This document shows positions 5,412 to 51,543 of a stretch of 64,000 nt of DNA, piece after piece. The notes under the pieces were generated by a model. It saw only the letters and a list, made by a program, of their open reading frames with translations, had not been told where the DNA came from and did not search any database. The translations under genes and the position numbers were made by a program. This stretch comes from a virus: IMG/VR virus record IMGVR_UViG_3300035670_000106, positions 1 to 64,000 of that record; one strand, given 5' to 3'. Numbering within the stretch: position 1 is the first letter of the stretch; each line of letters begins with the position of its first letter.

Positions 5412-5468
5412 TTAAAAACTAAACTTGCACACAAGCAAGAACTATGCCAACTGGGGCGGTTATCAGAC

Positions 5469-5483: not shown

Positions 5484-5510
5484 TTACCAGTGGCCCCACC
5501 GCGCGCGATA

Positions 5511-5580
5511 AATTAGAAATTCTATGGAAGCCAGATAGGTGTATAATTAGAAATTCTATGGTAGGTGTATTCTATGGAAG
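5511..5580. repeat. short direct repeats before the late promoter
   Basis: AATTAGAAATTCTATGG occurs at 5511-5527 and 5545-5561, AGGTGTAT at 5537-5544 and 5563-5570, and TCTATGGAAG at 5521-5530 and 5571-5580. This looks like an iterated binding site or a duplication. Role unknown. Confidence 0.7.
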
Positions 5581-5602
5581 ATTAGCATCAAAATTTTTAA
5601 AC

Positions 5603-5631
5603 TTGACTTAAGCTACCCATCATGTTATAAT
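5603..5631 (+). promoter_or_regulatory. late promoter before terS
   Basis: TTGACT (5603-5608), 17 bp, TATAAT (5626-5631), preceded by an A/T tract. It belongs with the promoters at 10781, 17923 and 41376. The expected transcript starts about 25 nt before the terS start codon. Confidence 0.8.
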
Positions 5632-5662
5632 AGATACATCCTAACAAAATTGTATTTATATT

Positions 5663-6145
5663 ATGTTACCAACACAACCGCCCGTATATTCACCAGCGCA
5701 GTCAGTAGTTATATCTCCAGAAGCGCTGGAAATAGCCAATATGTACCTTACTACTCAAAATGTCCAAAAAACGGCCCAAGAGCTCGGAGTAGCACCTGAG
5801 TTAGTGTCCGAAACTTTAGATAGACGAGAAGTACGAGCATATATTGATAATCTCTTTCTAGACGCAGGATTCAATAATCGGTTCAGGATGAGAGAAGTAA
5901 TGGATGCCATTATTAGCAAAAAGTTGCAGGAACTCGACGAGGCAGAGGTCGGAAGCAGCAAGGATATTGCAGATCTTCTAGCACTGTCACATAAAATGAC
6001 AATGGATATTCTCGACCGTCAGATCAAATTAGAGACACTTAAAGCAAGTAATGGAGTTAAAACACAAGTTAATATGCAAGTGAACGAATTTGGAGGAGAT
6101 ACCAAATACGCAGCACTCATATCAAAGTTACTCGGAGCTAAGTAA
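5663..6145 (+). CDS. terS: terminase small subunit (probable)
   Basis: A 160-residue protein. An N-terminal helix-turn-helix-like region (NVQKTAQELGVAPELVSETL, about 33-52) is followed by a long helical region with NNRFRMREVMDAIISKK and KDIADLLALSHKM. Helix-turn-helix plus helical oligomerisation core and a place directly before terL fit the DNA-recognition subunit of the packaging motor. Sequence evidence alone is moderate. No Shine-Dalgarno is visible before the ATG at 5663; an alternative ATG at residue 27 has GGAAA upstream. First gene of the late region. Confidence 0.65.
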   Translation: MLPTQPPVYSPAQSVVISPEALEIANMYLTTQNVQKTAQELGVAPELVSETLDRREVRAYIDNLFLDAGFNNRFRMREVMDAIISKKLQELDEAEVGSSKDIADLLALSHKMTMDILDRQIKLETLKASNGVKTQVNMQVNEFGGDTKYAALISKLLGAK

Positions 6146-7375: not shown

Positions 7376-8666
7376 ACCAGGAATAAATGCTGATTTTATT
7401 GAAGAGCTAGATGTTGCCGATAGGTTTATAAAACTACCTATTGATAAGTACTTGCAACTTCTGCCTTCGCCAGACAGAAATGGGTCCGTATTTGATAACT
7501 TAAATAGACCCCAAATTGCACTAATCAACGCAATTAACTCGCCATCATACAGATTTGTATGTGCTGCGTTAAGTCGACGCTTAGGAAAAACTTATATAGC
7601 AAATGTTATAGCACAGCTAGTTCTGCTAATACCTGATGTAGAAGTACTAATTATGTCGCCTAACTACTCTTTATCAAATATTAGTTTCGAGTTACAGCGT
7701 AAGCTAGTGTCAACTTTTGATTTAGAAGTAACTAGAGATAACGTTAAAGATCGCGTTATAGAGCTATCAAACGGATCAGTAATTCGTGCAGGCTCCGTCA
7801 ATCAAGTAGATAGTTGCGTTGGACGTTCCTATCAGCTAATCTTGTTTGATGAGGCGGCTCTATCCGCTGATGGGGAGGCAGCATTTAATGTATCGTTACG
7901 ACCAACACTAGATAAACCAAATAGTAAAGCTATATTTATCTCGACACCTCGTGGAAAGAAGAACTGGTTCTCTAGGTTTCATGCTCGTGGATTTAGCAAA
8001 GAGTACCCTGAATGGATCTCCCTAACTGCTGACTGGACAGAGAATACCAGAATGTCTGCAAAAGACGTTGAAGAAGCTCGTAGAATTATGTCAGCTGCGG
8101 AATTCGAACAGGAATATATGGCCTCCTTCAATTCTTACCAAGGGCAGATTTACGCACTATCGAATGAAAACATTATTGAAGAACTACCTCCCGGCAAATA
8201 CGAATTCTTTGGCGGATTAGACCCTGGATATAAGGATCCAACTGCTTTCGTAGTTATAGCATACAATTTAGAAGAAGACTTCTATGTTGTAGTTGATGAC
8301 TATAAAGAAGCTGAAAAGAATACTAGAGAGCACGCCTTTGAGATAAAGAACTTAATTAATAAATGGAATGTTGATGCTATCTTTATTGATAGCGCTGCTC
8401 CGCAGTTCTCGGCTGACTTAGCATATCTATATGATATAGCTACGCTAAAAGCTAAGAAGCAAGTGCTAGAAGGTATTGCCTTCTGCCAAACTATAGTTCA
8501 GCAGGATAAGTTAAAAGTAATGGCCCACTGTCACTGGACTATTGATGCACTCGATCAATACCAATGGGACCCAAATGAAGCATTGGTAAAAGAAAAGCCT
8601 CTACATAATGAAGCTTCGCATATTGCAGATGCTCTTAGATACGCTTTATACACCTTTACTATCTAA
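7359..8666 (+). CDS. terL: terminase large subunit
   Basis: A 435-residue packaging motor. The ATPase half has a Walker-A-like LSRRLGKT (71-78) and Walker B LILFDEAA (160-167), with a coupling motif near FISTPRG. The nuclease half has acidic residues in GGLDPGY (D288), FIDSAA (D344) and HIADALRYAL (D424), the RNase-H-like metal site that cuts concatemers. The start is a TTG at 7359 with a full GGAGG 6 nt upstream, inside the end of the glycosyltransferase gene. Its last 21 bp overlap the end of the converging homing endonuclease gene. Confidence 0.93.
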   Translation: MLTISKPGINADFIEELDVADRFIKLPIDKYLQLLPSPDRNGSVFDNLNRPQIALINAINSPSYRFVCAALSRRLGKTYIANVIAQLVLLIPDVEVLIMSPNYSLSNISFELQRKLVSTFDLEVTRDNVKDRVIELSNGSVIRAGSVNQVDSCVGRSYQLILFDEAALSADGEAAFNVSLRPTLDKPNSKAIFISTPRGKKNWFSRFHARGFSKEYPEWISLTADWTENTRMSAKDVEEARRIMSAAEFEQEYMASFNSYQGQIYALSNENIIEELPPGKYEFFGGLDPGYKDPTAFVVIAYNLEEDFYVVVDDYKEAEKNTREHAFEIKNLINKWNVDAIFIDSAAPQFSADLAYLYDIATLKAKKQVLEGIAFCQTIVQQDKLKVMAHCHWTIDALDQYQWDPNEALVKEKPLHNEASHIADALRYALYTFTI

Positions 8667-10082
8667 GACCCATACATCATTACCAGAATCATATACAGGG
8701 TAGAAACCTTCTTTAGCCATAATTTCTTTTTCAGTTAGCTCTTCAGAGTAGCTATCAGGAAACATATCTTTTAGTAAGTATTTTTGGCACTGGTACCTAC
8801 TAAGACGCTTACTGTATCCCCTATAATAAGCGTAATTAGGTCTGCTAGTATGAGATAGAAAAAACCCAAGAGATTTATAAAGATCACCATTAGACCATCT
8901 TCTATCTGAATAAGATATAATACTTCCCTTATGCTCCTTTCTGAAACTATTGAGTAATTTCGAAGCTCCTCCAACTACATTTATTCCAATTTTGGAACAA
9001 TAGCGAACTAGTTCATAATTATAAGAATTATTAAATCTAGGAGTATTAAAAGTCATTACCGCTATTAACTCTCCGTCTAATACTAATCCATAGTTATACT
9101 TAGTTGGAGATCCTGCCCCTTGTAAGTGATTGTTTACCAAGAAATCCCTAGGAAAGCCTATCTTAACTATAGAGCATTTTCTAGCATACACTTTATCATT
9201 TAAATTCAGCAAGCTACTTATTTTAGATCTAACTATACTTTGTTTTAGTCTCCATTCGTCTTCATTAATATGTACTAGTCTATACCCTACTTCTTTTATT
9301 TTTTCAGTTTTAAAATTAAAAGAATACTCATCTTCTTTATGCCAGTATATACCATTATACTCAAAAGCAATCCCTAAGTCTGGTAATACTATATCTAATT
9401 CCTTACCTCCTAATATACTTCTATCATTACGTTCAATCCATCCAGGGTATACAGAAAAAATAAATTTATATAATTCTTCCTCACCCTTTGATACATTAGG
9501 AAAACAAGTACGACAAGTACTGCCAGAATTATCTGTTAGTAGAGCATTTGGAATAATATCCCACTCATGCCCACAGCTACCTCTTACAGTAACCCTACTT
9601 TTAGCACTTATATATTTACCTACTACTTTAAGATTAAATTTATCAAAAACTTCCTTTTCAAAAAACTCCTGAGGCTTAGTACCAGTAGTCACAGGTATTC
9701 CAGCACATATTCTACAAATACTATTAACACCTTTTTCTAGAATTTTTGTTGGAATAATATCCCACTCATGCCCACAGTCGCCACGTACCTTAATACTAGT
9801 TTTAGCAGTTTTATATTCTTCTAACAAAGTTAGTTTAGGGTACTTAGAAAGTAATTCACTCTTAAATGTTTCATTAGTTTTTCTATTATGTGCTACTCTA
9901 GGACTACATTTAGGACATCTTGACTTATCTCCTCGATTAACTAAATTACCATAAATAGCATTCCAAGAAGTATCACAAGTATTACACTTTAAAAGTATCT
10001 TATTTTTAGAACCTAAGTACTCGCTAATTACACTAATATTAGGATATAAGCTATGTACTTTATCAATATACTTATTTGACAT
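8646..10082 (-). CDS. free-standing homing endonuclease (EDxHD/Vsr-like)
   Basis: A 478-residue protein running against the late genes. Three zinc-ribbon repeats occupy the first 200 residues (CNTC/CPKC; CGHEWD/CRIC; CGHEWD/CRTC). A nuclease core follows with KELDIVLPDLGIAFEYNGIYWH, resembling the EDxHD family of phage homing endonucleases (I-Bth0305I type, related to Vsr and PD-(D/E)XK folds). The rest (ARKCSIVKI, NNHLQGAG) is a DNA-binding module common in such proteins. GAGGA lies about 11 nt before the ATG. It has its own extended -10 promoter and converges on terL with a 21-bp overlap, so it is best read as an invading selfish gene. Confidence 0.8.
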   Translation of the reverse strand: MSNKYIDKVHSLYPNISVISEYLGSKNKILLKCNTCDTSWNAIYGNLVNRGDKSRCPKCSPRVAHNRKTNETFKSELLSKYPKLTLLEEYKTAKTSIKVRGDCGHEWDIIPTKILEKGVNSICRICAGIPVTTGTKPQEFFEKEVFDKFNLKVVGKYISAKSRVTVRGSCGHEWDIIPNALLTDNSGSTCRTCFPNVSKGEEELYKFIFSVYPGWIERNDRSILGGKELDIVLPDLGIAFEYNGIYWHKEDEYSFNFKTEKIKEVGYRLVHINEDEWRLKQSIVRSKISSLLNLNDKVYARKCSIVKIGFPRDFLVNNHLQGAGSPTKYNYGLVLDGELIAVMTFNTPRFNNSYNYELVRYCSKIGINVVGGASKLLNSFRKEHKGSIISYSDRRWSNGDLYKSLGFFLSHTSRPNYAYYRGYSKRLSRYQCQKYLLKDMFPDSYSEELTEKEIMAKEGFYPVYDSGNDVWVLDSKGV

Positions 10083-10112
10083 TTGTAAAATTTCCTCATT
10101 TGTAGAAATTTT

Positions 10113-10141
10113 ATTATAGCATATAAGTATAATAATTTCAA
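10113..10141 (-). promoter_or_regulatory. promoter of the antisense homing endonuclease
   Basis: Minus strand: TTGAAA (10136-10141), 17 bp, TATAAT (10113-10118) with an extended TGC before it. This gives the gene its own early-type transcription against the late direction. Confidence 0.75.
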
Positions 10142-10162
10142 TACTAAAATTTTATAGGTTAT

Positions 10163-10678
10163 ATGACAGCAGGAATTTATAAACTAACCTTTTCAGATGG
10201 TTCTATTTACGTAGGTAAAAGCGTAAACATTGATAAACGATGGAAACAGCACGCTAAAGCCTTTGTAGCAGGTACTCATACTAAAAGTATGCAGCAAGCA
10301 TATAATAAATATGGAGAACCTGTTTATACCATAATTATTTATTGCCATCCAGACCATATAGATATTCTAGAAAACTACTATATAGGATGTTACTGGGGCA
10401 ATGAGAAAATACTTAATTCAACCGCCCCGATTTGGTACAATGATGCAGACTTAGAGGTAATAGAAGAATACCCTATGGAATACTGGAAGATTAGTACTTT
10501 TGATCATCTGCGTAGCTTGGCCTCGCTAGAAGCCCGGAATGGGCTTTTAGAAAGTAAACTGCAGCGATCTAAGAAAGCTCAAACTATTTCTGAGCTGGAA
10601 GCAAAGATCACAGAGTTAAAACGAGATAACGCCGCCTTACGAAATAGAAGTTTTTTAGAACGACTTTTCAACCTTTAG
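10163..10678 (+). CDS. GIY-YIG endonuclease with C-terminal coiled coil
   Basis: A 171-residue protein. The GIY-YIG nuclease core occupies residues 4-95: GIYKLTF, IYVGKS, the conserved arginine in DKRWKQH, and a glutamate in ILENYYIG. This family cuts DNA via one metal ion and includes phage homing endonucleases. Residues about 125-165 form a charged coiled coil ending in FLERLF, in place of the usual DNA-binding repeats. It follows the antisense homing gene, and a strong terminator closes the unit. Confidence 0.8.
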   Translation: MTAGIYKLTFSDGSIYVGKSVNIDKRWKQHAKAFVAGTHTKSMQQAYNKYGEPVYTIIIYCHPDHIDILENYYIGCYWGNEKILNSTAPIWYNDADLEVIEEYPMEYWKISTFDHLRSLASLEARNGLLESKLQRSKKAQTISELEAKITELKRDNAALRNRSFLERLFNL

Positions 10679-10727
10679 GGGTCAAGGAGGGGCTATAAAA
10701 AGAAACCAAAGCCACCTAAAAGTAATA

Positions 10728-10756
10728 AAGCCCGCCTTAGTGCGGGCTTTATTTTT
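10728..10756 (+). terminator. terminator after the GIY-YIG gene
   Basis: Stem AAAGCCCGC/GCGGGCTTT followed by ATTTTT. It ends the first late transcription unit 25 bp before the next late promoter. Confidence 0.9.
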
Positions 10757-10780
10757 ACCTTAGCTTAAAAAATTTTATCA

Positions 10781-10809
10781 TTGACTTTAGCTTCCTCAAG
10801 TGTTATAAT
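10781..10809 (+). promoter_or_regulatory. late promoter before the HNH/portal unit
   Basis: TTGACT (10781-10786), 17 bp, TATAAT (10804-10809). The upstream AAAAATTTTATCATTGAC is identical to the sequence before the promoter at 41376. Confidence 0.85.
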
Positions 10810-10858
10810 ACCCCTATAATACTAAATTGTGTAAACTTTTTTAAACTCGGAAATAAGA

Positions 10859-11296
10859 ATGGCGGTAAATACTAATAAGAGAGTAGCAGTTAAGCATGTG
10901 CGGGACAAAGCTAAGTCAGCTTACGAAAAGAAGTCACAATGCCATATTTGTGAGTCTACTGAGGAGCTGGAGCTCCACCATACTAACTCAATTTCTTTGC
11001 TACTAGAAAAGTGGGCGAAGAAAAAAGGCTATGATATTAGTACAGACGAAGGAATTCTTAGAGTTCGGGACGAGTTTATTGAGGAGCATCACTCTGAGAT
11101 ATACGATGAGGTTTTTACCTTATGTAATAAGCATCATGTTAATTTACATAAGGTATTCGGCAAAGCCCCTGAATTACATACAGCATTAAAGCAGAGTAGA
11201 TGGATTGAAAAACAACGAGCTAAGTTCCTTGGCCTAGAGTTAGAGGAAACTCCTCAAGGCGATAAACCTAAAGGACTATTTAGTAAGTTTTATTAA
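10859..11296 (+). CDS. HNH endonuclease, head-gene associated
   Basis: A 145-residue HNH protein: zinc-binding CHIC near residue 28, ELELHHTNSIS with the catalytic histidine, and LCNKHHVNLHKVFG near 100. An HNH protein next to terminase and portal is common in HK97-type phages, where it assists terminase during packaging. Its position as first gene of the portal unit makes that role more likely than homing. A GGA-rich leader precedes the ATG, and AAGGA for portal follows directly. Confidence 0.8.
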   Translation: MAVNTNKRVAVKHVRDKAKSAYEKKSQCHICESTEELELHHTNSISLLLEKWAKKKGYDISTDEGILRVRDEFIEEHHSEIYDEVFTLCNKHHVNLHKVFGKAPELHTALKQSRWIEKQRAKFLGLELEETPQGDKPKGLFSKFY

Positions 11297-11305
11297 AGGA
11301 TTCCT

Positions 11306-12490
11306 ATGGACTGGAGTATTAAAAACTGGTTCAAGACAAAAGAGAATAGAGCGCAAGAAGATATAGCTATATCAGAAGGGTACGCAGTTTATAGTGATGC
11401 TCCAGTATCTTACGCACAAGCATATGAAGCTTTAGAGTCAGTATCTCGTGGAACTAATATGATTGTTAGTGCTGCAGCAGGCCTTGACTTTGATGTAAAA
11501 GATAAGACTGTTGAAGGTGTGGTAGCAGGCGTTAGACAGAAAACACTATACAATTTATTGAACTTTAAACCTAACCCGTACCAATCTATTCAAGATTTCA
11601 GAACTCAAATATTCACTGACTTTATATTAGAAGGCAATGCTTTCATTTATTATGACGGAGCTTACTTATACCATCTCCCAGCGAGTAAAGTATCGGTGCT
11701 ACCAGACCCTAAAACTTTCGTAGCCGGATATGAATACAATGGTAACACGAAGTTTAAAGCAGATGAAATAATTCATATAAAAGATCTAAGCAGTAGTTCA
11801 GTGTACAGGGGATCGAGTCGTCTTTCAGCTGCTGCAAGAACTATTAGTTTATTATACAAGATGCACGAGTTTCAAGAAAAGTTCTTCGATAACGGAGCTG
11901 TTCTAGGTTTAGTATTTGAAACAGAAAATACACTTAGTCAATTAGCCAAAGATCGTACTATACTTACTTGGAAACAAAAATACAACGTTAAGAATGGGGC
12001 AAAAAGTCCACTAATTCTTGACAGCGGTCTCAAATTAAAGCATGTTGGAGACTCTAGTTTTAAAGACATGGATTTTGACACGTCTATTAAGACTCATAAT
12101 TTAAAAATTTTAATGGCGTTAGGGGTTCCTCAAGTTCTAATAGATGGAGGGAACAACGCCAATATTTCGCCTAATCTAAGATTGTTCTACCTAGAGACAG
12201 TACTTCCAATAGTTAGAAGATTAACTTCCGCAGTAGAACTTTATTTTGGATACGATGTAGATATAGTAACTTCTAATGTATCCGCCCTTCAGCCAGAGAT
12301 AAAGGAAATCGCCTCTTATCATGCAACTCTAGTTAATGGTGGTATCATTACACCTAACGAGGCGCGTATAGAGCTGCGTTATCCTATTAAACCTGGTCAA
12401 GATGACATTAGAGTGCCAGCAAATATAGCAGGATCAGCTGCTAATCCAAATGAAGGTGGTGCTCCCAAAAAGGATAGCAATGCACCGTAA
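11306..12490 (+). CDS. portal protein (HK97 family)
   Basis: A 394-residue protein of normal portal length. Typical HK97-portal stretches are FRTQIFTDFILEGNAFIYY, a DEIIHIKDL segment, a helix with FQEKFFDNGAVLGLVFE, and a C-terminal half with LGVPQVLIDGGNNANISPNL. The last 20 residues are low-complexity. It forms the dodecameric DNA channel at the head vertex and docks terminase. It sits 9 bp before the protease-capsid gene. Confidence 0.9.
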   Translation: MDWSIKNWFKTKENRAQEDIAISEGYAVYSDAPVSYAQAYEALESVSRGTNMIVSAAAGLDFDVKDKTVEGVVAGVRQKTLYNLLNFKPNPYQSIQDFRTQIFTDFILEGNAFIYYDGAYLYHLPASKVSVLPDPKTFVAGYEYNGNTKFKADEIIHIKDLSSSSVYRGSSRLSAAARTISLLYKMHEFQEKFFDNGAVLGLVFETENTLSQLAKDRTILTWKQKYNVKNGAKSPLILDSGLKLKHVGDSSFKDMDFDTSIKTHNLKILMALGVPQVLIDGGNNANISPNLRLFYLETVLPIVRRLTSAVELYFGYDVDIVTSNVSALQPEIKEIASYHATLVNGGIITPNEARIELRYPIKPGQDDIRVPANIAGSAANPNEGGAPKKDSNAP

Positions 12491-12498
12491 GGAGATTT

Positions 12499-14415
12499 AT
12501 GAATAGTAAGATTTTATATCTTAATCACGTCTTTGAGAAGAGTGCCTCGGGAGAAGATAGCCTAAGTATCGAAGGATACGCTAACTGCACCACTGTTGAT
12601 CGCAGCGGTGATATTATCCCAATGACCGCATGGTCAAAGGCTTTGGATAACTATTTAAAGAACCCAATTATTTTAGCCTACCACAAACATTCTCAGCCAA
12701 TAGGAAAGATGGTTGAGCATAGGGTAGACGACAAAGGATTGTGGATAAAAGCCAAAATCTCTGCAGCCGCAGGAGATGTTTATAATTTGATTAAGGATGG
12801 TGTACTTACAGCATTTAGTGTTGGTTTTATAGTTAAAGATGCCACCTATGATGCAGTAACAGATCTTTTTGTAATTAAAGATCTAGAGCTACTAGAAGTT
12901 TCTGTAGTTTCTGTACCAGCTAATCAAGATAGTACATTTAGTCTTTCTAAATCATTTGAAAATACAGAAGACTATAATAATTTTAAGAATCAATTTGCTA
13001 AGACGATCGAAACAGCTAAAGGGCTAGATTCATCTGATGAGCAGAAATCTGATCAATCAAAAAAGGAATGGAATATGGATCCTAAAGAATTAGAACAATT
13101 ACTTGCTAACGCTGCTGAGAAGGCTGCTGCTGCTGTTTATGAGAAGCAAGCTGCTGAGAAGGCTGCTGCTGAGAAGGCTGCTAAGGAAGCAATCGAATTA
13201 GAAGCAAAAATCAAATCTGTAGTTTCTACAGTTGATACAGGCGCTGAGCGTCTAATGGCTGATATTGAGAAGCGTTTCGCTGAACAGGCCGACACACAGA
13301 AATCAGCTCTAGCTGGTCTAGAAGCTGCTATTAAAGAGAAAGCTGCCGAACTTGAGGCCATTCAAAAGTCTAAGATGCAGTTCTCTGACAAACAAGGTTC
13401 AGATACTATTGAGTATGCTGACAAAGAGAAGGCTGTTCTTCTTTCAAAAATTACTCGTAAAGCTGTGGATGAGACCAAATTTGGTCGTACATTGGTTGAA
13501 AAAGCCAGTCTATCTCCTCACCAGCCTACTAATGGTTCAGATCGTTGGGAAACAGAAGTTTCCAACAACATGGAAAATGAGATCCGTAGAAAGCTAGTTA
13601 TGGCTCCTCTATTCCGTAATCTAAACATGCAAACCAATGTTATGAAGATTCCTGTCAATCCTGAAGCAGGTTTCGCAACATGGATGGCTAACTCAGCTTT
13701 CGGTACTACAGCTTCTCCTGGAGCTACCCAGTTACATACCTTCAACGAGATTACTCTAAGTGCATATAAAGTTGCTACTAACGAGTATCTAAACTACGAA
13801 GAAGAAGAAGATTCACTGATCGTTCTTCTGCCTATCATCCGTGATGCTATGATTCGTAGAGTTGCTAAGGCTGTTGATAAGGCATTCCTATTGGGTGCTG
13901 GTGCAGGCTCTGATCCTGTCAAGGGTAGCGCACTTTATGATGCTACCTCAGCTGTTACAGCTTCAGTTACAGCTTCTGCCTCTATCTCTAACCTACGTGC
14001 TCTACGTAAAGATCTAGGTGCATGGGGTCTTGACCCTTCTGAACTAGTTTATGTCGTTTCTACCGAAGTTTATTACGATCTTCTAGATGACACACTGTTC
14101 CAGACCATGGACAAAGTAGGTTCAGTTGCTACTCTATTAACTGGTCAAGTAGGCTCAGTTGGTAACACCCCAGTTATCGTTTCTGATGCTTTCCCAACAA
14201 AGGCTTCTGGTACAACTTCTGCAGCTACCAATATCGGTGCAATCTGTATTGCTCCTGGTAACTTCATCGTTGGTAACCAGCGTGGTCTACGTCTAGATAC
14301 TCAGGATCTAGTTGAGACACAGCGTAAAGTTATGGTCGCTTCTCTACGTACCGGTATGACACAAATCTCTACCGCTAACGGTATGGGCGTTTCAACTTTC
14401 CGTTGGACAGTCTAA
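12499..14415 (+). CDS. prohead protease (S78) fused to HK97-fold major capsid protein
   Basis: A 638-residue fusion. Residues 1-160 are a serine protease of the HK97 gp4 (S78) type, with H64 in KHSQPIG and S107 in TAFSVGF, and EVSVVSVPAN as the third motif. Residues about 193-300 are an alanine/lysine/glutamate-rich coiled coil, the scaffold-like delta domain. From about 300 on is the capsid subunit (NEYLNYEEEEDSLIVLLPII; VGNQRGLRLDTQD). A good internal ribosome site (AAAAGGA at 13061-13067) precedes an in-frame ATG at 13075 (codon 193), which would give a 446-residue capsid precursor without protease. Confidence 0.9.
   Translation: MNSKILYLNHVFEKSASGEDSLSIEGYANCTTVDRSGDIIPMTAWSKALDNYLKNPIILAYHKHSQPIGKMVEHRVDDKGLWIKAKISAAAGDVYNLIKDGVLTAFSVGFIVKDATYDAVTDLFVIKDLELLEVSVVSVPANQDSTFSLSKSFENTEDYNNFKNQFAKTIETAKGLDSSDEQKSDQSKKEWNMDPKELEQLLANAAEKAAAAVYEKQAAEKAAAEKAAKEAIELEAKIKSVVSTVDTGAERLMADIEKRFAEQADTQKSALAGLEAAIKEKAAELEAIQKSKMQFSDKQGSDTIEYADKEKAVLLSKITRKAVDETKFGRTLVEKASLSPHQPTNGSDRWETEVSNNMENEIRRKLVMAPLFRNLNMQTNVMKIPVNPEAGFATWMANSAFGTTASPGATQLHTFNEITLSAYKVATNEYLNYEEEEDSLIVLLPIIRDAMIRRVAKAVDKAFLLGAGAGSDPVKGSALYDATSAVTASVTASASISNLRALRKDLGAWGLDPSELVYVVSTEVYYDLLDDTLFQTMDKVGSVATLLTGQVGSVGNTPVIVSDAFPTKASGTTSAATNIGAICIAPGNFIVGNQRGLRLDTQDLVETQRKVMVASLRTGMTQISTANGMGVSTFRWTV
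13061..13077 (+). promoter_or_regulatory. internal ribosome site and start for capsid precursor
   Basis: AAAAGGA ends 7 nt before an ATG that is in frame with the fusion at codon 193, exactly between protease and delta domain. It could raise capsid yield over protease. Confidence 0.6.
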
Positions 14416-14417
14416 TT

Positions 14418-14448
14418 TAAGAAGGGGGAGTATACCTCCCCCTTCTTA
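14418..14448 (+). terminator. first of two hairpins after the capsid gene
   Basis: Perfect 13-bp stem (TAAGAAGGGGGAG with its complement) and loop TATAC, directly after the capsid stop. A weak T-tract follows. It probably terminates partially or protects capsid mRNA from 3' decay. Confidence 0.6.
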
Positions 14449-14481
14449 TACTTTAGTGTACCTTTTTGTACACTAAAGTAT
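14448..14481 (+). terminator. second hairpin after the capsid gene
   Basis: Perfect 14-bp stem (ATACTTTAGTGTAC with its complement) with T-rich loop, abutting the first. No T-run follows its 3' arm, so it is more likely an attenuator or stability element than a full terminator. Confidence 0.55.
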
Positions 14482-14501
14482 AAGAAGTATAGGAGAAAGT
14501 C

Positions 14502-15071
14502 GTGGCAAAGGATTTAATTACTGTAGCAGAATACAAAGCATATGCCGGTATCTCTAGTACTCAGAAGGACGCCTCGATAGCTCTTTTGATACCTAAGATT
14601 AGCGCATTCTGTAAATCATACTGCAAAAGAACTTTTGTAGATTATGTAGAAGATGCAAAAGTAGAAATGTACAATGGCGGAGAATATTTTGTACTAGGTG
14701 AGACCCCAGTTTTAAGTGTATCAAGTGTAGAAGTATCTGAAGACTATGGTAAATCATATTCAGCTCTTACAGAGTATACAGATTACGTCTTAGATATATC
14801 AGAGGCTACTATAAAACCACTATCTTCAACCGCGAAGTTCGTACCATTGTTAAATGGGTACAGAGTAACGTATAATGCTGGATTTGAAGTAGTTCCGGAA
14901 GATTTAAAGATTGCTGTAATGGATTTATTAACATACTATCTAAAAGGTGATATGGCAGTCAAGTCTCAGAGAGACGCAGGGTCCAATACAGTTCAGATTG
15001 AGTATATAACTAAGAATACTTTGCCGGCACATATTGCCAGAGTATTTGATTTATATATTGCAAGTATGTAA
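14502..15071 (+). CDS. head-tail adaptor (HK97 gp6/SPP1 gp15-like)
   Basis: A 189-residue protein. The start (ITVAEYKAYAGIS..KDASIALLIPKISAFCKSYC) is the usual form of phage head-tail connector proteins that ring the portal, and the middle ELxxYTDYVLD segment and the C-terminal helix also fit. The start codon is GTG at 14502 with AGGAG upstream. It follows the double hairpin after the capsid gene, where adaptor genes normally lie. Confidence 0.75.
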   Translation: MAKDLITVAEYKAYAGISSTQKDASIALLIPKISAFCKSYCKRTFVDYVEDAKVEMYNGGEYFVLGETPVLSVSSVEVSEDYGKSYSALTEYTDYVLDISEATIKPLSSTAKFVPLLNGYRVTYNAGFEVVPEDLKIAVMDLLTYYLKGDMAVKSQRDAGSNTVQIEYITKNTLPAHIARVFDLYIASM

Positions 15072-15079
15072 GGAACCGT

Positions 15080-15523
15080 ATGTCTGTAAGAACAAGTATA
15101 GCTAAAGCTCTAGCTGAAAAACTAAAAAGTATAGACGGTTCTACTGGGTATAAAACCAATATTTTTAATAACGCTTATCCTTATTTAAAATTCTGGGATG
15201 AGGTAGCAGATTTCCCTTCTATCTATATGACTGTAGGTATGGAAACTCGTGAATACCATCCGGGAGGCTTTAAGTGGGGATACTTAAATATAACTCTTAA
15301 ATTATATGTGCAGGGGGAAGAACCTGCGCAGACACTAGAATTACTTCTCGAAGATGTTGAGAAAGTAATTGACACAAACAGAACCTTAGTATACGACGAA
15401 ACTACACCAGGGGCTCAAACTGTAGAGATACTGATCACATCTATAGTTACTGACGAAGGGCTACTAGAACCTTATGGAGTAGGGGAAGTTAATATTACCG
15501 TTCAATATCAGGTACTCAGTTAA
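15080..15523 (+). CDS. tail terminator protein (gpU-like)
   Basis: A 147-residue protein, 8 bp after the adaptor gene and before the tail tube gene, where siphophages encode the tail-terminating ring. SVRTSIAKALAEKLK then a beta-rich body ending VGEVNITVQYQVLS fits the small alpha/beta fold of gpU-type proteins. Assignment rests mainly on position and length. Confidence 0.6.
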   Translation: MSVRTSIAKALAEKLKSIDGSTGYKTNIFNNAYPYLKFWDEVADFPSIYMTVGMETREYHPGGFKWGYLNITLKLYVQGEEPAQTLELLLEDVEKVIDTNRTLVYDETTPGAQTVEILITSIVTDEGLLEPYGVGEVNITVQYQVLS

Positions 15524-15589
15524 TTATGCACAGATAAATATCTAGTCTACATTACTGAGAACTTAATACCATATTTAAAGGAATAAGAT

Positions 15590-17041
15590 ATGGCTTATAA
15601 TTTAGCTCGAAATTCTCGTGTTTTCGTCACTACTAACCTAGACTCTTATGGAGCAGTTGCAGCTAGCGGGTTTACTACTGCAAATACCTTCGAGGTACAA
15701 GTATTAGACGGATTCTCTTTTTCTCAGGGTACTAACCAAACAACTATTTCTATAAATGAAGCTGGCGAGACGCCTATTAGAGGTCAACGCGCTTTTAATA
15801 CCGCACTTAATCCGGTAGAAATTAGCTTCTCAACATATATTCGTCCTAGACTAAACGGATCTCAAGCTACTGCAGAAGAGCGAGTTCTTTGGAATGCTCT
15901 GATGGGTTCAGTACCTCTGGATTACACGGGTACTACAGCTCCTGCTATCGGTGGTACAGTAGCAGGTATTACAAGAGCTTCAACTCTTACAAATGTTGCC
16001 ACTATTACAGGTACCTCAATGACATACGCCGGTATTTCAGTAGGCGACATAGGTACATTAAAAGGTTTAGCAGGTACAGGCTCCGATTATTGGAACCAAC
16101 AAGTAAAAGTCACTGCCTTAAGTGGTACTTCTATTTTAGTAACCTATTTAAGCGCCCCTCCTACTGCAGCAGGGACATCTTTTTCAAATGCAGGATCTGT
16201 TAGATTTGATAAAGCAGCTTGGGTAGAAAAAGCTTCATTAGCTGGTAACGCTATTTCTTATGGCCAAGTAACCTCAGCAACCTCTAATAAAAACAAGCTA
16301 CAAAGTTTAGGCTTTATTTTTATTGTTGACGGTGCTACTTATACAATTGACAATTGTGCAATTGATGGAGCTTCTATAGACTTTGGTCTAGACGCTATTT
16401 CAATGGTTGCATGGACCGCAAAAGGTACTAAACTGAATCAGTTAGCTACTACTGTAAGTCTTAGTGCCGCTACCGATCCAGTTATGTCTGGTGGGTTGAC
16501 AGGTACAGCAACAGGCAAGGTTACTACTGCTAACTATATCACTAACAAACTATCAACAGTTAGTTTGAAGAGCGGTATCGGAGAAACAGCAGGTACTGAT
16601 TATACTATAGTACTTACTGGAGGTAACATCCAGATTGCTAATAACATCAACTACATTACTCCTAATAATATTGGTGTAGTTAATATTCCTATTGGATACT
16701 ACACTGGAGCAAGAGCAGTCAGTGGCACCCTAAACGCTTATCTACGTACTGGATCAGGCTTTGCAGCAGACTTGCTAACAAGCATGCTTTCAGATGTTGC
16801 TACAGCTTCTGAGACTAAGTTTAATTTAAGTGTGGATATTGGTGGATCCTCTAATACTACTAGAGTAGAGCTAAACATGCCTGGAGTATCTCTTGGTATT
16901 CCTAGTGTTGAAGTTGCGGATGTGGTATCTACAGCTATTACTTTTAACGCACAAAGTACTACCGGAGATAAGACCACTAGTGGTAATACATACGATATTG
17001 AAAATACTAACGATATTGAGATCCGTTACTATTCAGTTTAA
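15590..17041 (+). CDS. major tail tube protein
   Basis: A 483-residue protein, long for a tube subunit, starting NLARNSRVFVTT and containing a tube-like region (FSFSQGTNQTTISINEAGET; NPVEISFSTYIRP). Residues about 105-200 (TGTTAPAIGG to SVRFDKAAW) look like an inserted beta domain, and another beta domain is in the C-terminal third. Position before the G/GT chaperones and tape measure is standard. An AAAGGA site precedes the ATG. Confidence 0.75.
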   Translation: MAYNLARNSRVFVTTNLDSYGAVAASGFTTANTFEVQVLDGFSFSQGTNQTTISINEAGETPIRGQRAFNTALNPVEISFSTYIRPRLNGSQATAEERVLWNALMGSVPLDYTGTTAPAIGGTVAGITRASTLTNVATITGTSMTYAGISVGDIGTLKGLAGTGSDYWNQQVKVTALSGTSILVTYLSAPPTAAGTSFSNAGSVRFDKAAWVEKASLAGNAISYGQVTSATSNKNKLQSLGFIFIVDGATYTIDNCAIDGASIDFGLDAISMVAWTAKGTKLNQLATTVSLSAATDPVMSGGLTGTATGKVTTANYITNKLSTVSLKSGIGETAGTDYTIVLTGGNIQIANNINYITPNNIGVVNIPIGYYTGARAVSGTLNAYLRTGSGFAADLLTSMLSDVATASETKFNLSVDIGGSSNTTRVELNMPGVSLGIPSVEVADVVSTAITFNAQSTTGDKTTSGNTYDIENTNDIEIRYYSV

Positions 17042-17050
17042 TTAAGTTTT

Positions 17051-17086
17051 AAGAGGAGGGAGATAAGCTTACCCTCCTCCTTTTTA
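17051..17086 (+). terminator. terminator after the tail tube gene
   Basis: Stem GAGGAGGG/CCCTCCTC with an 11-nt loop followed by T6. It probably limits transcription into the chaperone genes. Confidence 0.8.
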
Positions 17087-17101
17087 TAAAGGTATATAAT
17101 A

Positions 17102-17530
17102 ATGACAGAATCACAAGAAGTACTAAGTCTAAAAAGTCTACTGGTCCCTACTAAAACAGTTGAAGTAGAATACCCAGGCATGTCAGGCTTCGTATTAACA
17201 CTATCCTTCCTTTCTAGAGAACAACTAACAAATATTAGAAAGAAAGCAGTAAAGACTGAGTTTAAAAATAGACAGCCAGTAGAAACACTAAATGAAGAGC
17301 TATTTTTACAACTATACGTCGAAGCCTGTATAAAAGGATGGAAAGGCCTAAAGTTTTCTTATCTAGAGCAATTAGCTCCAGTAGATATTAGTGCTCAAAA
17401 GCCAGAAGATACTCTTGGTTTTTCAAAAGAAAATGCACTGTACTTAATGAAAGCAAGCGCCGACTTTGACTCATTTATTAGTGATACTGTATCTGACCTT
17501 GCAAATTTTCAGAAGAACAGTGGAGAGTAA
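17102..17530 (+). CDS. tail assembly chaperone G
   Basis: A 142-residue protein in the place of lambda gpG, between tail tube and tape measure. It has a beta-rich N-terminus (VEVEYPGMSGFVLTLSFLS) and a helical rest. Near the 3' end, codons GCA AAT TTT contain the heptamer AAATTTT (17503-17509), a canonical X-XXY-YYZ slip site in this frame. The next frame (-1) is open from 17497 into the downstream gene, giving a predicted G-T fusion of about 259 residues. Chaperones of this type coat the tape measure during tail assembly. Confidence 0.85.
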   Translation: MTESQEVLSLKSLLVPTKTVEVEYPGMSGFVLTLSFLSREQLTNIRKKAVKTEFKNRQPVETLNEELFLQLYVEACIKGWKGLKFSYLEQLAPVDISAQKPEDTLGFSKENALYLMKASADFDSFISDTVSDLANFQKNSGE

Positions 17531-45886: not shown

Positions 45887-47257
45887 ATGTCAACTAATAG
45901 TTACGTTAGAGTTCCTCCGGATAGTACTGGTAAGCGTTATTTTACAATACAGCACAGTATTTCAGGAGTAGATACTCAAGTTCAGGTAATGCATGCTTCT
46001 GATCCTGACTATCCTGAGAATATACAAAAAGTTGACGAAAGAGGAGCCGCTTCGGTTAGGTTTTCGGAGGGCTCTCCTCTCTCAGACGCTTTCGGTAATT
46101 TAAAAGTTTCCAATAGAAAATGTATTGGTACTTATGATTTCGTAGCTGATGACGAATCAGACTACTGGAGTTATCAAGAAACAGGTGGAGGTACGATTAC
46201 TTACTTGTCTGATGCCTCTACAATGCAACTTGCTGTAGGTACTGCATCTGGTGATAAGGCAATGATGACAACCAATCATCATCATTACTATTATCCGGGT
46301 ACCAGTAACCTATATATGTTTACCATAGCTTTATCAGATACTAGTACAACAGGTTGTAGACGCAGATGGGGAGCTATTGATGACCACAATGGTCTGTTCT
46401 TCAAACTGAGAGAAGATAACGTTCTTGTATTAGGTCAACGATCTTCAGTAACAGGTACACCAGTAACTAACTGGGTAGCTCAGTCCAATTGGAATGGTGA
46501 CAAGTGTGATGGTACTGGCTTATCTGGTTTTACCCTCGACCCAACCAAGATGAATATCTACTGGATTGACTTTCAGTGGTTAGGCGCTGGTAGGGTTAGG
46601 TTTGGTGTTATTGACGAGTTTGGCAATCGTATCGTCGGCCACACAATGCTTAATGCCAATCAAAATCAGTACCCTTATATGCAGATGGGTAGCCTAACTG
46701 TAAGGGCGGAGATTGAGAATGTAGCTGTTACAGGCAATGCTGCTTCTATGAGGTTAACCTGTGTATCTGTGCATTCAGAGGGCGAGATTAACTATACCTA
46801 CTGGAGAGCAGTACATGAGTTCCCACAAGCTACTATTACAGGAAATAATCATCATCTTATCAGCTTAAAAGCACCTGATCTGTTTAATGGTAAGCATAAT
46901 GCAGTTACTTCTTACCCAGAACACATTGATTGTTTTGTATCAGGTGGTACTGTTAAGCTGGAAATCTATTGGGATTATCTGACACTTACCGGACCTACAT
47001 GGGTTGATAATGGTACTGCTGTAGTTGCGAGTACTACAGGCACACTTACTGACCCTTCAGGTATGTATAGGCCTAAGATTTGGTATCTAGATGCTGGTAG
47101 TCATAGCATTGATATAAACGAAATCTTTGACAAACATGACTTCGGTATTGATATCAACGCTGATGAAACAGAGGCTATTTACGTTACCTTAGTAGCAAGT
47201 CTAGTTAGCGGGACTCCTACTATCGTTGGTGGCATTCAGTATGCAGAATTGAGGTAA
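45887..47257 (+). CDS. virion structural protein (456 aa)
   Basis: Beta-rich, with FGNLKVSNRK near residue 70, an unusual histidine run (TTNHHHYYYPG) near 130, and FRLREDN-like and WLGAGRVRFGVIDEFGNR stretches that recall carbohydrate-binding or capsid-decoration folds of phage proteins. It is part of the accessory fibre unit. No enzymatic motif is evident. Confidence 0.5.
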   Translation: MSTNSYVRVPPDSTGKRYFTIQHSISGVDTQVQVMHASDPDYPENIQKVDERGAASVRFSEGSPLSDAFGNLKVSNRKCIGTYDFVADDESDYWSYQETGGGTITYLSDASTMQLAVGTASGDKAMMTTNHHHYYYPGTSNLYMFTIALSDTSTTGCRRRWGAIDDHNGLFFKLREDNVLVLGQRSSVTGTPVTNWVAQSNWNGDKCDGTGLSGFTLDPTKMNIYWIDFQWLGAGRVRFGVIDEFGNRIVGHTMLNANQNQYPYMQMGSLTVRAEIENVAVTGNAASMRLTCVSVHSEGEINYTYWRAVHEFPQATITGNNHHLISLKAPDLFNGKHNAVTSYPEHIDCFVSGGTVKLEIYWDYLTLTGPTWVDNGTAVVASTTGTLTDPSGMYRPKIWYLDAGSHSIDINEIFDKHDFGIDINADETEAIYVTLVASLVSGTPTIVGGIQYAELR

Positions 47258-47297: not shown

Positions 47298-47806
47298 GGA
47301 ATGCAAATGGTAAGGTATCGTTTAATGGGGTTAACAAAACAATTAATGTTAACTCCGACGTTACAACTCTAGACATTAGAAGTGAGGTATACTCTCTTTG
47401 GGTAGACTGGCTAGAATTTGGTACAAATTCTAGCTTTCCTTTAGCTATGAGATACTCTGGAATGGATCCTATCCCTAATGGCGAGTCAGGAGGGATCTTC
47501 TTCCTTACTAATGGTTGGAGACTTATTATTGACTTCAATAAAGTAGCAGTATTTGGCGTTTTATACTCAGACGACTATCCGACTGCTTATTTTACAGAAG
47601 AGTTACAACCTTTATACCCTGCTCAAGTTAGTGGCATTGTTAATAATGTAATACAAACTAATACTGTAACAGTAGCAGCCAACCCAACAGAAGTAGCGCA
47701 AGCTATACTAGCTTCCCCTGTAAATACTAGTAGTACTCCCGGTTCTATAGGTGAGTTTATTACTAAAAAACTACTTACTGTAGCTAAGTTCATAGGATTA
47801 AGATAA
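47261..47806 (+). CDS. virion-associated protein (181 aa)
   Basis: Begins MSLIVWSSFGDIWNANGKVS and includes VYSLWVDWLEFGTNSSFPLA and a C-terminal helical tail. It resembles the C-terminal or partner protein of the preceding structural gene in position. GAGGT lies before the ATG. Its ATG overlaps the stop of... the next gene begins on its last base, showing tight coupling. Confidence 0.5.
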   Translation: MSLIVWSSFGDIWNANGKVSFNGVNKTINVNSDVTTLDIRSEVYSLWVDWLEFGTNSSFPLAMRYSGMDPIPNGESGGIFFLTNGWRLIIDFNKVAVFGVLYSDDYPTAYFTEELQPLYPAQVSGIVNNVIQTNTVTVAANPTEVAQAILASPVNTSSTPGSIGEFITKKLLTVAKFIGLR

Positions 47807-48498
47807 TGACAACAAATAGACAACCTAATAACTCTAATAAAGGCAATTCGTACTCCTTCGAGGCCGAAAGTCTATTGATTCAATCTATGAATTTACTATC
47901 TGATAGAATAGCTAAGGCAGAGACTGACTTTGTTGGGCACTTAAAGAAAGTTGAAGATAGGCTCGATCAAATTGTAGAACTTACTAAATCTGTTGCGGTT
48001 TTACAAACTCAAACTAGCCAACAAACAGATCATATCACAGAAATAAGGGAAGCACAAAGAGAGCAATTCCATAAAGCAGACGCCTCTCTTACTCGAGTGC
48101 ACTCTAGAATCGAAGAGGTTCAATCTAACGCTAATATAAAGCTTGAAGCTTTTGGAACTGAAGTTAAAGCAATAGTTAAGGATGTAGAAAATCACGCAGA
48201 TAGCACAGATAGGGAACTAAAAGCTTGGCTTAATAGAGGTTGGGGGGCATGGGCAGTTTTTACCCTTGCTGTTACAATATCCTCAGGATTGTTTTATAAG
48301 TGGGTAGACTCTATTGAACAGGATAAAGTTGTACTAACAACCTCAGTAAATCAATTGGTAGAGGTATCTACTAAAACTAATAACTCAATCCAGAAGTTGA
48401 CTGAGCAAGTACAAAGTAATAAGCAAAGCATAGAAAGGCTTGATATTATGATGGATGACCTGGAAAAACAACTAGAGTATATGAGGATTAAAAGATGA
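47806..48498 (+). CDS. membrane-anchored coiled-coil protein (230 aa)
   Basis: Residues 20-145 and 172-228 are heptad-like coiled coil; residues about 147-168 (WGAWAVFTLAVTISSGLFYKW) are a single transmembrane helix. It is the first of three coupled genes for envelope proteins (ATGA overlap with the next). Arrangement recalls haemolysin XhlA-like or holin-associated proteins, or a periplasm-spanning tether. Not a typical spanin: no lipoprotein partner is adjacent. Confidence 0.6.
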   Translation: MTTNRQPNNSNKGNSYSFEAESLLIQSMNLLSDRIAKAETDFVGHLKKVEDRLDQIVELTKSVAVLQTQTSQQTDHITEIREAQREQFHKADASLTRVHSRIEEVQSNANIKLEAFGTEVKAIVKDVENHADSTDRELKAWLNRGWGAWAVFTLAVTISSGLFYKWVDSIEQDKVVLTTSVNQLVEVSTKTNNSIQKLTEQVQSNKQSIERLDIMMDDLEKQLEYMRIKR

Positions 48499-48923
48499 GA
48501 AAATTATTCTTTTTAATGCTTCTAATTGTTTCATTTAATGTATCAGCAACAAGTGTTCCTGCAATTAAAAATAATGACCCTAAATTAACGCAGTCTATAA
48601 CAAAGTTAGAAGCTTACTGGCTTTACACTTTAAAGCTACGATATTGGGATAGTGGGCATAAGGTCACATTATTTCTTCTACCTTTTGATAGCTCTGTGCA
48701 CAATACTTTTGTTAGGGATACCTTGGGGATCAACCCCAGGGTATTTCAACAGGTTATAGAGTCCAATATTAATATTGGGGTAGGGTCCTATAGGTTTGTA
48801 AGAAGCGAGTACTTAATGTATGATATGGTTAGTAAAGTACCCGGAGCTATTGGATATGTATCTAATAAGCTACTAATTAACGAAGGGGAAGGGCATGTTC
48901 GCAAGATTAATATTACTGATTAG
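48495..48923 (+). CDS. secreted periplasmic protein with PstS-like segment (142 aa)
   Basis: Residues 1-18 are a signal peptide (MRKLFFLMLLIVSFNVSA). The mature part includes DSSVHNTFVRDTLGINPRVF and VSKVPGAIGYVSNKLL, which resemble parts of PstS-type phosphate-binding proteins. At 142 residues it is far shorter than a full binding protein (over 250), so it is a fragment-like relative; ligand binding is unproven. It overlaps the porin-like gene by 29 nt. Confidence 0.6.
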   Translation: MRKLFFLMLLIVSFNVSATSVPAIKNNDPKLTQSITKLEAYWLYTLKLRYWDSGHKVTLFLLPFDSSVHNTFVRDTLGINPRVFQQVIESNINIGVGSYRFVRSEYLMYDMVSKVPGAIGYVSNKLLINEGEGHVRKINITD

Positions 48924-49965
48924 TTTATTACTATTTAGTACTTTTAGTTTTGCAGACTTAACTAAAAGTATTAGCGGATACCTCTATAATACTACTTGGG
49001 AAGACGAGAACTTTAATGAAAACAGGACAGTAGCAGCAGTTAGTGGGTCTATCGAGGGAGATAACTTGGCCCTACGTGGCCAAGTTAGTACCTCTGATCT
49101 TATAGTTAGAAGGCTAACCCTAGAGTACTCCGGGACTGGCCTTAGTACTGAGCACACTGCTACTGTTGGCAGGTTTAATAGAGTGGAGTCCTTCTTTAAT
49201 AACCTATTAGATGCTCCAAGTTCCACACAGATGGCTGTACTGCCATTTGGAGGATATAACTATAGAATGTTTAATGGCTCTTATGTATTGCTAGATGGTA
49301 TTGGGTATACTAACAAATATAAGTATAACGGAGGCACTTTAATTACTACTAAAGTAAATTATGGCAACTCTGTTATAAACAGTGATAAGGATGTACAGTT
49401 AGAGGCTTTTAAAACTTATATACCTACTATCGATGTAGTGTCTGACCCTACGTTCGATATTAGTTTAAAGGTAGAGCGAAAAGGTCTACAGGGGTATATA
49501 GCTAGACAACACTATAAGATACATCTAGAACCTAAAAGTTCGGACCCAATGACTGATGCAATAGTATCTACATATAAATATACTGACTATATTTTATATA
49601 GGGCTGGAATACGAAAGGACTACAATAATTATTTTGTTAGTATAGAGGCTGATAAAGGAGAAACAATAGTAAATAGTACTCATAAGACTAAAAGTATTTA
49701 TAATAAGGCTATGGAGTATAATGTAGTCTTAGGTACTTATATAAAGGACTTTATGTTATATACAGGGGTATCTCGTGGTAAGAACTTAACTACTGATACC
49801 TCCAATACTGATAATTTTATTGGAGTAACCTATAACTATGATCCTTGTATAGTAGTATCGTTAGCTAAGCATCAAGGAAAGGGCAGAGGTTGGGTTAAGT
49901 ATGGTAGCAGCCCAGAAGAGTACAAATGGAACACTCTTGTCCTATCTACTACTTATAAATTTTAA
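48895..49965 (+). CDS. porin-like outer-membrane beta-barrel protein (356 aa)
   Basis: Signal peptide at residues 1-20 (MFARLILLISLLLFSTFSFA). The mature protein has alternating hydrophobic strands with G, Y and T turns throughout and ends ...STTYKF with a terminal phenylalanine, the recognised Bam signal of outer-membrane proteins. It is likely a porin-type barrel. A phage-encoded outer-membrane protein could mask or replace a receptor (superinfection exclusion) or change uptake. Starts within the preceding gene, with AAGGGG and GAAGGG just upstream. Confidence 0.65.
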   Translation: MFARLILLISLLLFSTFSFADLTKSISGYLYNTTWEDENFNENRTVAAVSGSIEGDNLALRGQVSTSDLIVRRLTLEYSGTGLSTEHTATVGRFNRVESFFNNLLDAPSSTQMAVLPFGGYNYRMFNGSYVLLDGIGYTNKYKYNGGTLITTKVNYGNSVINSDKDVQLEAFKTYIPTIDVVSDPTFDISLKVERKGLQGYIARQHYKIHLEPKSSDPMTDAIVSTYKYTDYILYRAGIRKDYNNYFVSIEADKGETIVNSTHKTKSIYNKAMEYNVVLGTYIKDFMLYTGVSRGKNLTTDTSNTDNFIGVTYNYDPCIVVSLAKHQGKGRGWVKYGSSPEEYKWNTLVLSTTYKF

Positions 49966-49979: not shown

Positions 49980-50534
49980 ATGGCTTTACCACTTTTACTA
50001 GCACCTTTATTAGGTAAATTAGCAGAAAATGGACTTGGACTACTAGCCAGCGCAGTCACAGCTAAGGGCAAGGACTTAATTGAGGAAAAACTAGGAGTAG
50101 ACCTTGATAAAGAGATGGGGTCTGAAGAAGGGCGTATTAGGTTAAGAGAGCTAGAATTAAAGCACGAAGAGTTTTTAATTGAATCTGCACAGAAAAAAGC
50201 GGAACAAGAGTTAGAAGTAATTAAAGTTAGCAATGCTGATACAGCTTCTGCTAGAGATATGAATACCCGTATTCAGGAGTCCACTAATGCTTCAGGATTC
50301 GCAAAAAATGCCGCATATTACTTAGACTTTGTAATCGTAGGAGCCACACTAGTCCTAGCTTACATTCTATTCTTTGTTCAGATACCAGAAGAAAATCTCC
50401 AGCTACTTTATATGGGGTTTGGTTCACTACTGACTATGTGTGGTACTATTCTTAATTTCCACAGAGGCACTTCCCATTCTTCAAGAGAAAAAGACTCAGC
50501 CATACACGGTATTTTAGGAGATAAAAAATTATGA
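49980..50534 (+). CDS. holin, 3TM (GTA) family
   Basis: A 184-residue membrane protein. An N-terminal amphipathic hydrophobic region (LLLAPLLGKLAENGLGLLAS), a charged coiled middle, then two transmembrane helices (about 115-137 and 143-160) and the family-like tail FHRGTSHSSREKD. This fits the GTA_holin_3TM type, which releases or activates the endolysin at the end of infection. GGAG before the ATG; ATGA overlap with the endolysin gene supports the call. Confidence 0.75.
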   Translation: MALPLLLAPLLGKLAENGLGLLASAVTAKGKDLIEEKLGVDLDKEMGSEEGRIRLRELELKHEEFLIESAQKKAEQELEVIKVSNADTASARDMNTRIQESTNASGFAKNAAYYLDFVIVGATLVLAYILFFVQIPEENLQLLYMGFGSLLTMCGTILNFHRGTSHSSREKDSAIHGILGDKKL

Positions 50535-50857
50535 GCTTAGGCGCAGAGCAAGAAAGTTTTACTCGTGATCTTGTTAAACTATTAACAAAAGCTTTCGAGC
50601 TGGGTTACGAAGTACGTATGGGAGAAGTACAGCGCCCTGTTGAAATGCAGGAACTATATGTCCGTACTGGCAGGTCTAAAACCATGAATTCACAGCACCT
50701 GAAGAAATTAGCTGCCGATTTACATTTTACAAAAGATGGAACACTGTGCTATCCTCAGGAGTTAGGTGACTACTGGGAGTCTTTATCTAAAGTTAACAGG
50801 TGGGGTGGAAACTGGAAATCTTTCAAAGATGCCCCACATTTTGAAAGATTTGTCTAA
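50531..50857 (+). CDS. endolysin, M15 zinc peptidase
   Basis: A 108-residue protein, small for an endolysin. Zinc ligands are as in the L-Ala-D-Glu peptidases of T5 type: H56 and D63 in QHLKKLAADLHF, and H103 in DAPHFE; E83 in YWESL may be catalytic. It would cut peptide stems of peptidoglycan after the holin opens the membrane. Overlaps the holin (ATGA) and shares one base with phoH. Confidence 0.85.
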   Translation: MSLGAEQESFTRDLVKLLTKAFELGYEVRMGEVQRPVEMQELYVRTGRSKTMNSQHLKKLAADLHFTKDGTLCYPQELGDYWESLSKVNRWGGNWKSFKDAPHFERFV

Positions 50858-51543
50858 TGGCTTCTTCCTCTAAAAAAGCTAGAAAAGTTGCATCTAATCC
50901 TAACCAGATCCAGATTAACGGCTTTGAGCCAATAAAGCCTAAGAACTTTGCACAAAGCACTTATTTAGATGCTATCCGTAGGTCTGATATTGTTTTTGCA
51001 ACAGGCCCTGCAGGTACTGGTAAGTCGTATATTGCTACAGCATACGCCGCGGAGCAACTTTACTATAAGAAGGTTGATAAAATTATTATAACTCGCCCAG
51101 CTGTAGAAGCTGAGGAAACTATGGGGTTCTTGCCCGGGGAACTAGAGGAAAAATATGCTCCTTACTTAGCACCTATAAGAGACATACTAGATAGACTACT
51201 AGGTAAATCCTTTGTAGACTACTGTTTAAAGGTTGGGTATATTGAGGCAGTTCCAATCGCCTATATGAGGGGACGTACTTTTGATAACGCCATTGTAATA
51301 CTAGATGAAGCACAAAACACAACCCCAAATCAAATGAAGCTAATCCTATCTAGAATAGGTAATAACTGTACATACATCATTGATGGGGATATTTCTCAGA
51401 AAGATATTCAAGGGCACTCTGGGCTAGAGGATGCTATGAAAAAACTTTCTGGCATTCCTGGAGTAGATATGGTTAACTTTTTTACTTCTGACATTGTTAG
51501 AAGTCCTTTATGTAAGAAAATTATACAAGCGTACTCGGAGTAG
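50857..51543 (+). CDS. phoH: PhoH-like ATPase
   Basis: A 228-residue P-loop protein with Walker A GPAGTGKS (50-57) and Walker B VILDEAQN, and the PhoH-typical GFLPGELEEK. PhoH proteins are widespread in phages and bacteria; a link with RNA metabolism or phosphate stress is discussed but the role in phage is not settled. Here it starts on the last base of the endolysin gene, an unusual place. Confidence 0.9.
   Translation: MASSSKKARKVASNPNQIQINGFEPIKPKNFAQSTYLDAIRRSDIVFATGPAGTGKSYIATAYAAEQLYYKKVDKIIITRPAVEAEETMGFLPGELEEKYAPYLAPIRDILDRLLGKSFVDYCLKVGYIEAVPIAYMRGRTFDNAIVILDEAQNTTPNQMKLILSRIGNNCTYIIDGDISQKDIQGHSGLEDAMKKLSGIPGVDMVNFFTSDIVRSPLCKKIIQAYSE

Follow-up and report, generated by a model that had tools for sequence, protein, structure and literature searches.

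The window analysed here, a stretch of 64,000 nucleotides that is part of the 90,095-base IMG/VR virus record IMGVR_UViG_3300035670_000106, raises the question of why a phage should encode, just ahead of its lysis genes, a secreted protein resembling part of PstS together with a porin-like outer-membrane barrel. Three open reading frames (ORFs) on the plus strand are involved: gene 1 (47806-48498, 230 aa) overlaps gene 2 (48495-48923, 142 aa) by 4 nt, and gene 2 overlaps gene 3 (48895-49965, 356 aa) by 29 nt, in agreement with a sequence-only reading that had placed three overlapping same-strand genes just before the holin. On the 5' side, a single gene of 181 aa separates gene 1 from the gene for a virion structural protein (45887-47257, plus strand; phrog_1645, E=9e-65). 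On the 3' side, gene 3 is followed on the same strand by the gene for a holin-like membrane protein (49980-50534, 184 aa; phrog_9990 and phrog_1544), which resembles in its position the gene annotated as 'holin of 3TMs' in phage DSL-LC04 and adjoins an M15 peptidase endolysin gene (50531-50857; PF13539, E=4e-8; phrog_465, E=3e-19), and then by PhoH (50857-51543; PF02562, E=8e-78). Genes 2 and 3 sit in the late structural/lysis region of the phage, and differ little from the window as a whole in G+C content (35 % against 37 %), so that a chimeric assembly is not indicated. A copy of the structural protein with 92 % identity is found on another record, IMGVR_UViG_3300035670_000293 (8001-17367 of our locus L300), where it adjoins a giant gene of the helicase/methylase type instead of a lysis cassette; this relative lacks the pair formed by genes 2 and 3, but its neighbourhood is wholly different from that in the window.

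Gene 2 encodes a small PstS-like protein with a hydrophobic, signal-peptide-like N-terminus and a single PstS lobe. When all ORFs of the window were compared with a profile of the type A small PstS family (see below) from which the phage sequence had been left out, gene 2 was retrieved with E=5e-21, the next ORF scoring 0.58, and hhalign against the same family gave a probability of 99.3. The AF2 model (pLDDT 77.6), for which the alignment included bacterial relatives, produced as its top PDB match in a Foldseek search 1twy, a PstS-type protein of V. cholerae (TM 0.51). The profile of the small PstS family matches PstS proteins at this same lobe, the aligned span corresponding to residues 103-218 of 1twy only, and the second lobe is absent from gene 2. 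The family shares with PstS (PF12849, including cyanophage PstS) the fold of one lobe and a PGAIGY-type motif, and differs from it in the missing lobe and in altered canonical phosphate-ligand positions; even full-length viral PstS proteins score merely about 20 bits against its profile. According to the alignment to 1twy, the R-x-x-x-S-G-T phosphate segment, the Arg, Ser, Gly and Thr positions of which we take from E. coli PstS to be the phosphate ligands of the aligned lobe, is replaced in the small PstS family, with an invariant His and an invariant Phe nearby.

Gene 3 likewise starts with a hydrophobic, signal-peptide-like segment and ends in TLVLSTTYKF, a C-terminus typical of the final strand of a barrel. 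The leave-phage-out profile of the type A outer-membrane proteins (OMPs) retrieved gene 3 as the sole significant ORF of the window (E=1.4e-5; next ORF, 0.5), and hhalign against the type A OMP, with an alignment collinear to the last residue, yielded a probability of 42 (E=2.6e-4), compared with 0.1 for each of two phage proteins taken as controls. A type B OMP as the parent of gene 3 was rejected (profile E=0.38). The structure model, also built from an alignment that included bacterial relatives, is a meander of approximately 16 strands with low confidence (pLDDT 51.7), and Foldseek matched this low-confidence model, among its best 50 PDB hits, almost exclusively to porins or other outer-membrane barrels. 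Taken alone, the homology of gene 3 to the OMPs appears modest; it is strengthened by synteny, because it is very unlikely by chance that two independent profiles would single out neighbouring ORFs that overlap and follow the bacterial gene order. Of the two proteins proposed before any search, the secreted part-PstS is borne out by these comparisons, and the porin-like protein with a terminal phenylalanine is supported as a probable barrel.

The entry point to the bacterial relatives was a weak match (E=2e-4) of gene 2 to a Halomonas plasmid locus, in which a small PstS-like ORF that carries no annotation overlaps a porin-like one and the two are followed by a GGDEF-EAL protein. A genome scan yielded 62 loci, nearly all from Halomonadaceae, every one of which (62/62) contained the PstS-like gene and an OMP, and in a profile search 86 of the 321 sampled gammaproteobacterial genomes contained members of the small PstS-like family, often in multiple copies. 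Some Gammaproteobacteria (our genomes G107, G013, G025 and others) carry up to 12 such genes, suggesting an expansion into numerous sensor operons. The operon survey covered 40 regions and additional ones, with overlap lengths that are approximate because genes were taken as simple ORFs from their first start; two arrangements were distinguished. In type A, the PstS-like gene precedes an overlapping gene for an OMP of approximately 400 aa with a terminal Phe, and a sensor gene usually comes next; of the 41 type A small PstS genes surveyed, 39 have the OMP directly downstream. The usual third gene encodes a transmembrane dCache_3-PAS-GGDEF-EAL c-di-GMP enzyme (GGDEF in 27, dCache_3 in 26 and EAL in 25 of the 33 third genes scanned), and the carriers include Halomonas/Vreelandella, Litchfieldella, an Ectothiorhodospiraceae MAG and many other Gammaproteobacteria. 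In type B, the OMP gene precedes the PstS-like gene, and among 17 scanned neighbours there were five GGDEF/EAL proteins, four MCPs and two HisKA proteins. The position of these genes within operons suggests that the pair and the sensor may be functionally linked in bacteria.

The phage pair and the bacterial type A operon have in common two homologous first genes in the same order with an overlap, signal peptides, and an OMP that ends in Phe. The phage barrel differs in its length (356 aa versus approximately 400-455 aa), identity is only about 17-20 %, and the third, sensor gene is missing, the holin-like gene following gene 3 instead; no GGDEF, EAL or MCP motifs were detected in the long ORFs of the window or of the rest of the record. 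We conclude that genes 2 and 3 are, with high probability, a captured bacterial two-gene envelope module. Their closest relatives are the first two genes of a c-di-GMP or chemotaxis sensor operon and not parts of a phage system for lysis or receptor blocking, which the sequence-only reading had raised as possibilities.

A weak match of a bacterial PstS-like query led to a second phage with such a pair, the unrelated phage NCTB (258 kb; LT598654.1), which has been grouped with PaBG, Lu11 and Dickeya/Erwinia phages (PMC7412058). On the minus strand of its genome, a small PstS-like gene (139914-140366, 151 aa), annotated merely as a shorter hypothetical, overlaps by 4 nt the gene for an OMP with a signal peptide and a terminal Phe (138727-139917, 395 aa), annotated as 'hypothetical'. 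Both products match the type B profiles (PstS-like, E=2e-21; OMP, E=3.4e-36). In the PstS tree, the long branches of which leave exact positions unsure, the window phage falls within clade A, on a very long branch (2.79), and NCTB within clade B, each branch with support of 100/96; this placement (starred branches) forces two independent phage acquisitions. Both phage pairs consist of a PstS-like gene overlapping an OMP gene with a signal peptide and are located after structural genes; the NCTB pair belongs to the sister, type B branch and has no adjoining recognised holin or endolysin, whereas the window pair adjoins both. No sensor gene was recognised within 6 kb of the NCTB pair. In two captures, then, the pair has been retained as a matched unit, A with A and B with B, and the sensor is absent. 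Just 5' of the NCTB pair (5418-5867 of locus L328) lies a gene for a small protein of the 2H-phosphoesterase/RNA-ligase-like kind (phrog_755, E=5e-20) with the HxT-type motifs HITLMY and HTSVKY, which may have an anti-CBASS (Acb1-like) or a tRNA-related role.

Further relatives in viruses were sought in several ways. A collection of 50,697 phage records and IMG/VR gave no match to the proteins of the window phage used singly, and a sequence search of the PDB with single phage proteins returned nothing useful; the phage collection contained no other relatives of either NCTB gene at the sensitivity used. Scans of IMG/VR with the bacterial alignment, the NCTB OMP and a W...F.G.G DNA pattern gave no additional pair-bearing phage among the matches listed, and a DNA pattern for PGAIGYV recovered, among the matches listed, full-length viral PstS only. 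Because the viral scans were limited to motifs, the absence of more phage pairs is weak evidence.

Gene 1 does not share the history of the pair. Its coiled-coil score exceeded those of all 100 shuffles, so the coiled coil of the predicted inner-membrane coiled-coil protein stands, whereas the membrane part comes down to a single marginal segment (residues ~145-165, maximal hydropathy 1.34). The PHROG, Pfam and NCBIfam matches of gene 1 are of the generic coiled-coil type, and no relative was found among the phages searched. Since neither the bacterial operons nor phage NCTB have a counterpart of gene 1 beside the pair, the conserved unit is the pair rather than the trio, and the idea of a three-gene, envelope-spanning unit is not supported. 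The sequence-only reading would have fallen if the genes were never found together elsewhere; for genes 2 and 3 the opposite is the case, given that the pair recurs both in bacteria and in NCTB.

What the pair does in the phage can be approached from the bacterial operon. In bacteria, the barrel would admit or bind a ligand, and the PstS lobe would pass its state to the periplasmic dCache domain of the sensor. The phage copies would be exported late in infection, assembling in the outer membrane and the periplasm, where they may act on the cognate sensor of the host as a substitute or decoy input. The resulting shift in c-di-GMP or chemotaxis output would alter surface properties, for example receptor exposure, biofilm or motility, to the benefit of the progeny. 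That the phage pair provides a host sensor with its input in the outer membrane and periplasm is a signalling mechanism that we propose tentatively; that two unrelated phages use the captured input half of a sensor as a surrogate or decoy, thereby resetting host signalling and the cell surface, is a possibility that we regard with some doubt. The phage PstS-like protein is very divergent, so its interface may have changed, and the exported pair might act instead through an envelope change late in infection.

Receptor substitution or superinfection exclusion, in which a late barrel masks, displaces or down-regulates a receptor with the PstS-like protein as its periplasmic partner, is a possible but less likely role. 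Outer-membrane proteins are encoded by several phages (lc of PA-2, Lom of lambda and Llp of T5), and masking, displacement or down-regulation of the receptor has been proposed for the PA-2 porin Lc in E. coli. These precedents, the porin-like fold, the signal peptide and the position in the late region are all in line with such a role. Like Lc and Lom, the product of gene 3 would be a phage-encoded outer-membrane barrel, but Lc and Lom belong to other barrel families, lack a PstS-like partner and come from a temperate lambdoid setting; moreover, the barrel described here is of a sensor-operon family and not of a demonstrated receptor family, and receptor substitution leaves unexplained why both captures, which were independent, retained the PstS lobe alongside the barrel. 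The signalling mechanism and exclusion could also coincide: c-di-GMP is known to control a receptor glycan of phage N4 (PMC8669472), and an effect on signalling could therefore serve as superinfection exclusion as well.

The PstS ancestry of gene 2 and the proximity of PhoH bring to mind nutrient uptake, whereby the pair, like cyanophage pstS, would raise the uptake of phosphate or another anion by the infected cell, and seven of the 34 bacterial type A partner OMPs match the Pfam model Porin_O_P (phosphate-selective porin), the matches of type A OMPs to this and to general porin models being mostly weak. We consider this improbable: only one of the two PstS lobes is present, the loss of the canonical phosphate ligands makes simple phosphate uptake unlikely, and the bacterial pairs are adjoined by signal transducers, not by PstABC.

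A lysis accessory role, in which the trio would disrupt or link the envelope together with the holin and endolysin, gene 1 acting for instance like a spanin, is more improbable still, although the trio lies immediately 5' of both lysis genes and a simple pattern search of 40-62 kb of the window found no lipobox ORF that could be an outer spanin, which leaves the spanin role unfilled and counts in favour of this role. The families of genes 2 and 3 are bacterial non-lysis proteins; by inspection, their starts are of the signal peptidase I type and lack a lipobox; and the NCTB pair adjoins structural and metabolic genes outside any recognised lysis cassette, so that the suggested help in lysis by the trio is not supported. 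The spanin matches of gene 1 were rejected as weak coiled-coil similarity with no lipobox partner. Equally improbable is that the barrel and the PstS lobe are virion proteins, or that the pair no longer has a function and is decaying, as its location after structural genes in both phages and the very long PstS branch might suggest, given the signal peptides, the intact ORFs with overlapping frames and the matched pairs (A/A, B/B) kept by both phages. Lysis and virion roles lack positive evidence beyond position.

Both metabolic genes and outer-membrane proteins encoded singly are known from phages. If the proposed signalling mechanism is correct, a matched barrel and periplasmic partner from a sensor operon, captured twice, would represent phage manipulation of surface signal input, with the host being manipulated from outside the inner membrane; the independent capture of the pair by two unrelated phages suggests that phages may tap into bacterial sensing of the surroundings. 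Literature searches found no published description of the type A operon or of either phage pair, and no annotation naming either pair or the operon was found. The bacterial operon, consisting of a small PstS lobe, a porin-like barrel and a c-di-GMP enzyme, is widespread yet apparently undescribed, and its function now becomes testable with respect to the ligand that enters and the control of the enzyme by the barrel and the PstS lobe.

In addition to the pair, several other genes of the same record, all on the minus strand and outside the window, drew attention on inspection by eye. A gene at ~80.6-82.1 kb of the record (L299 3637-5109) appears to encode a long Ro60/TROVE-like RNA-binding protein with a vWA-type domain, which is unusual for a phage. 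DNA polymerase A, at ~67.0-70.5 kb (L298 4014-7541), is apparently contained in two ORFs, between which lies a 303-aa endonuclease-like ORF, as would be expected of a gene that is split or interrupted by a self-splicing intron, and an NAD-dependent DNA ligase-like gene (L298 10866-12698) likewise takes the form of two adjacent ORFs.
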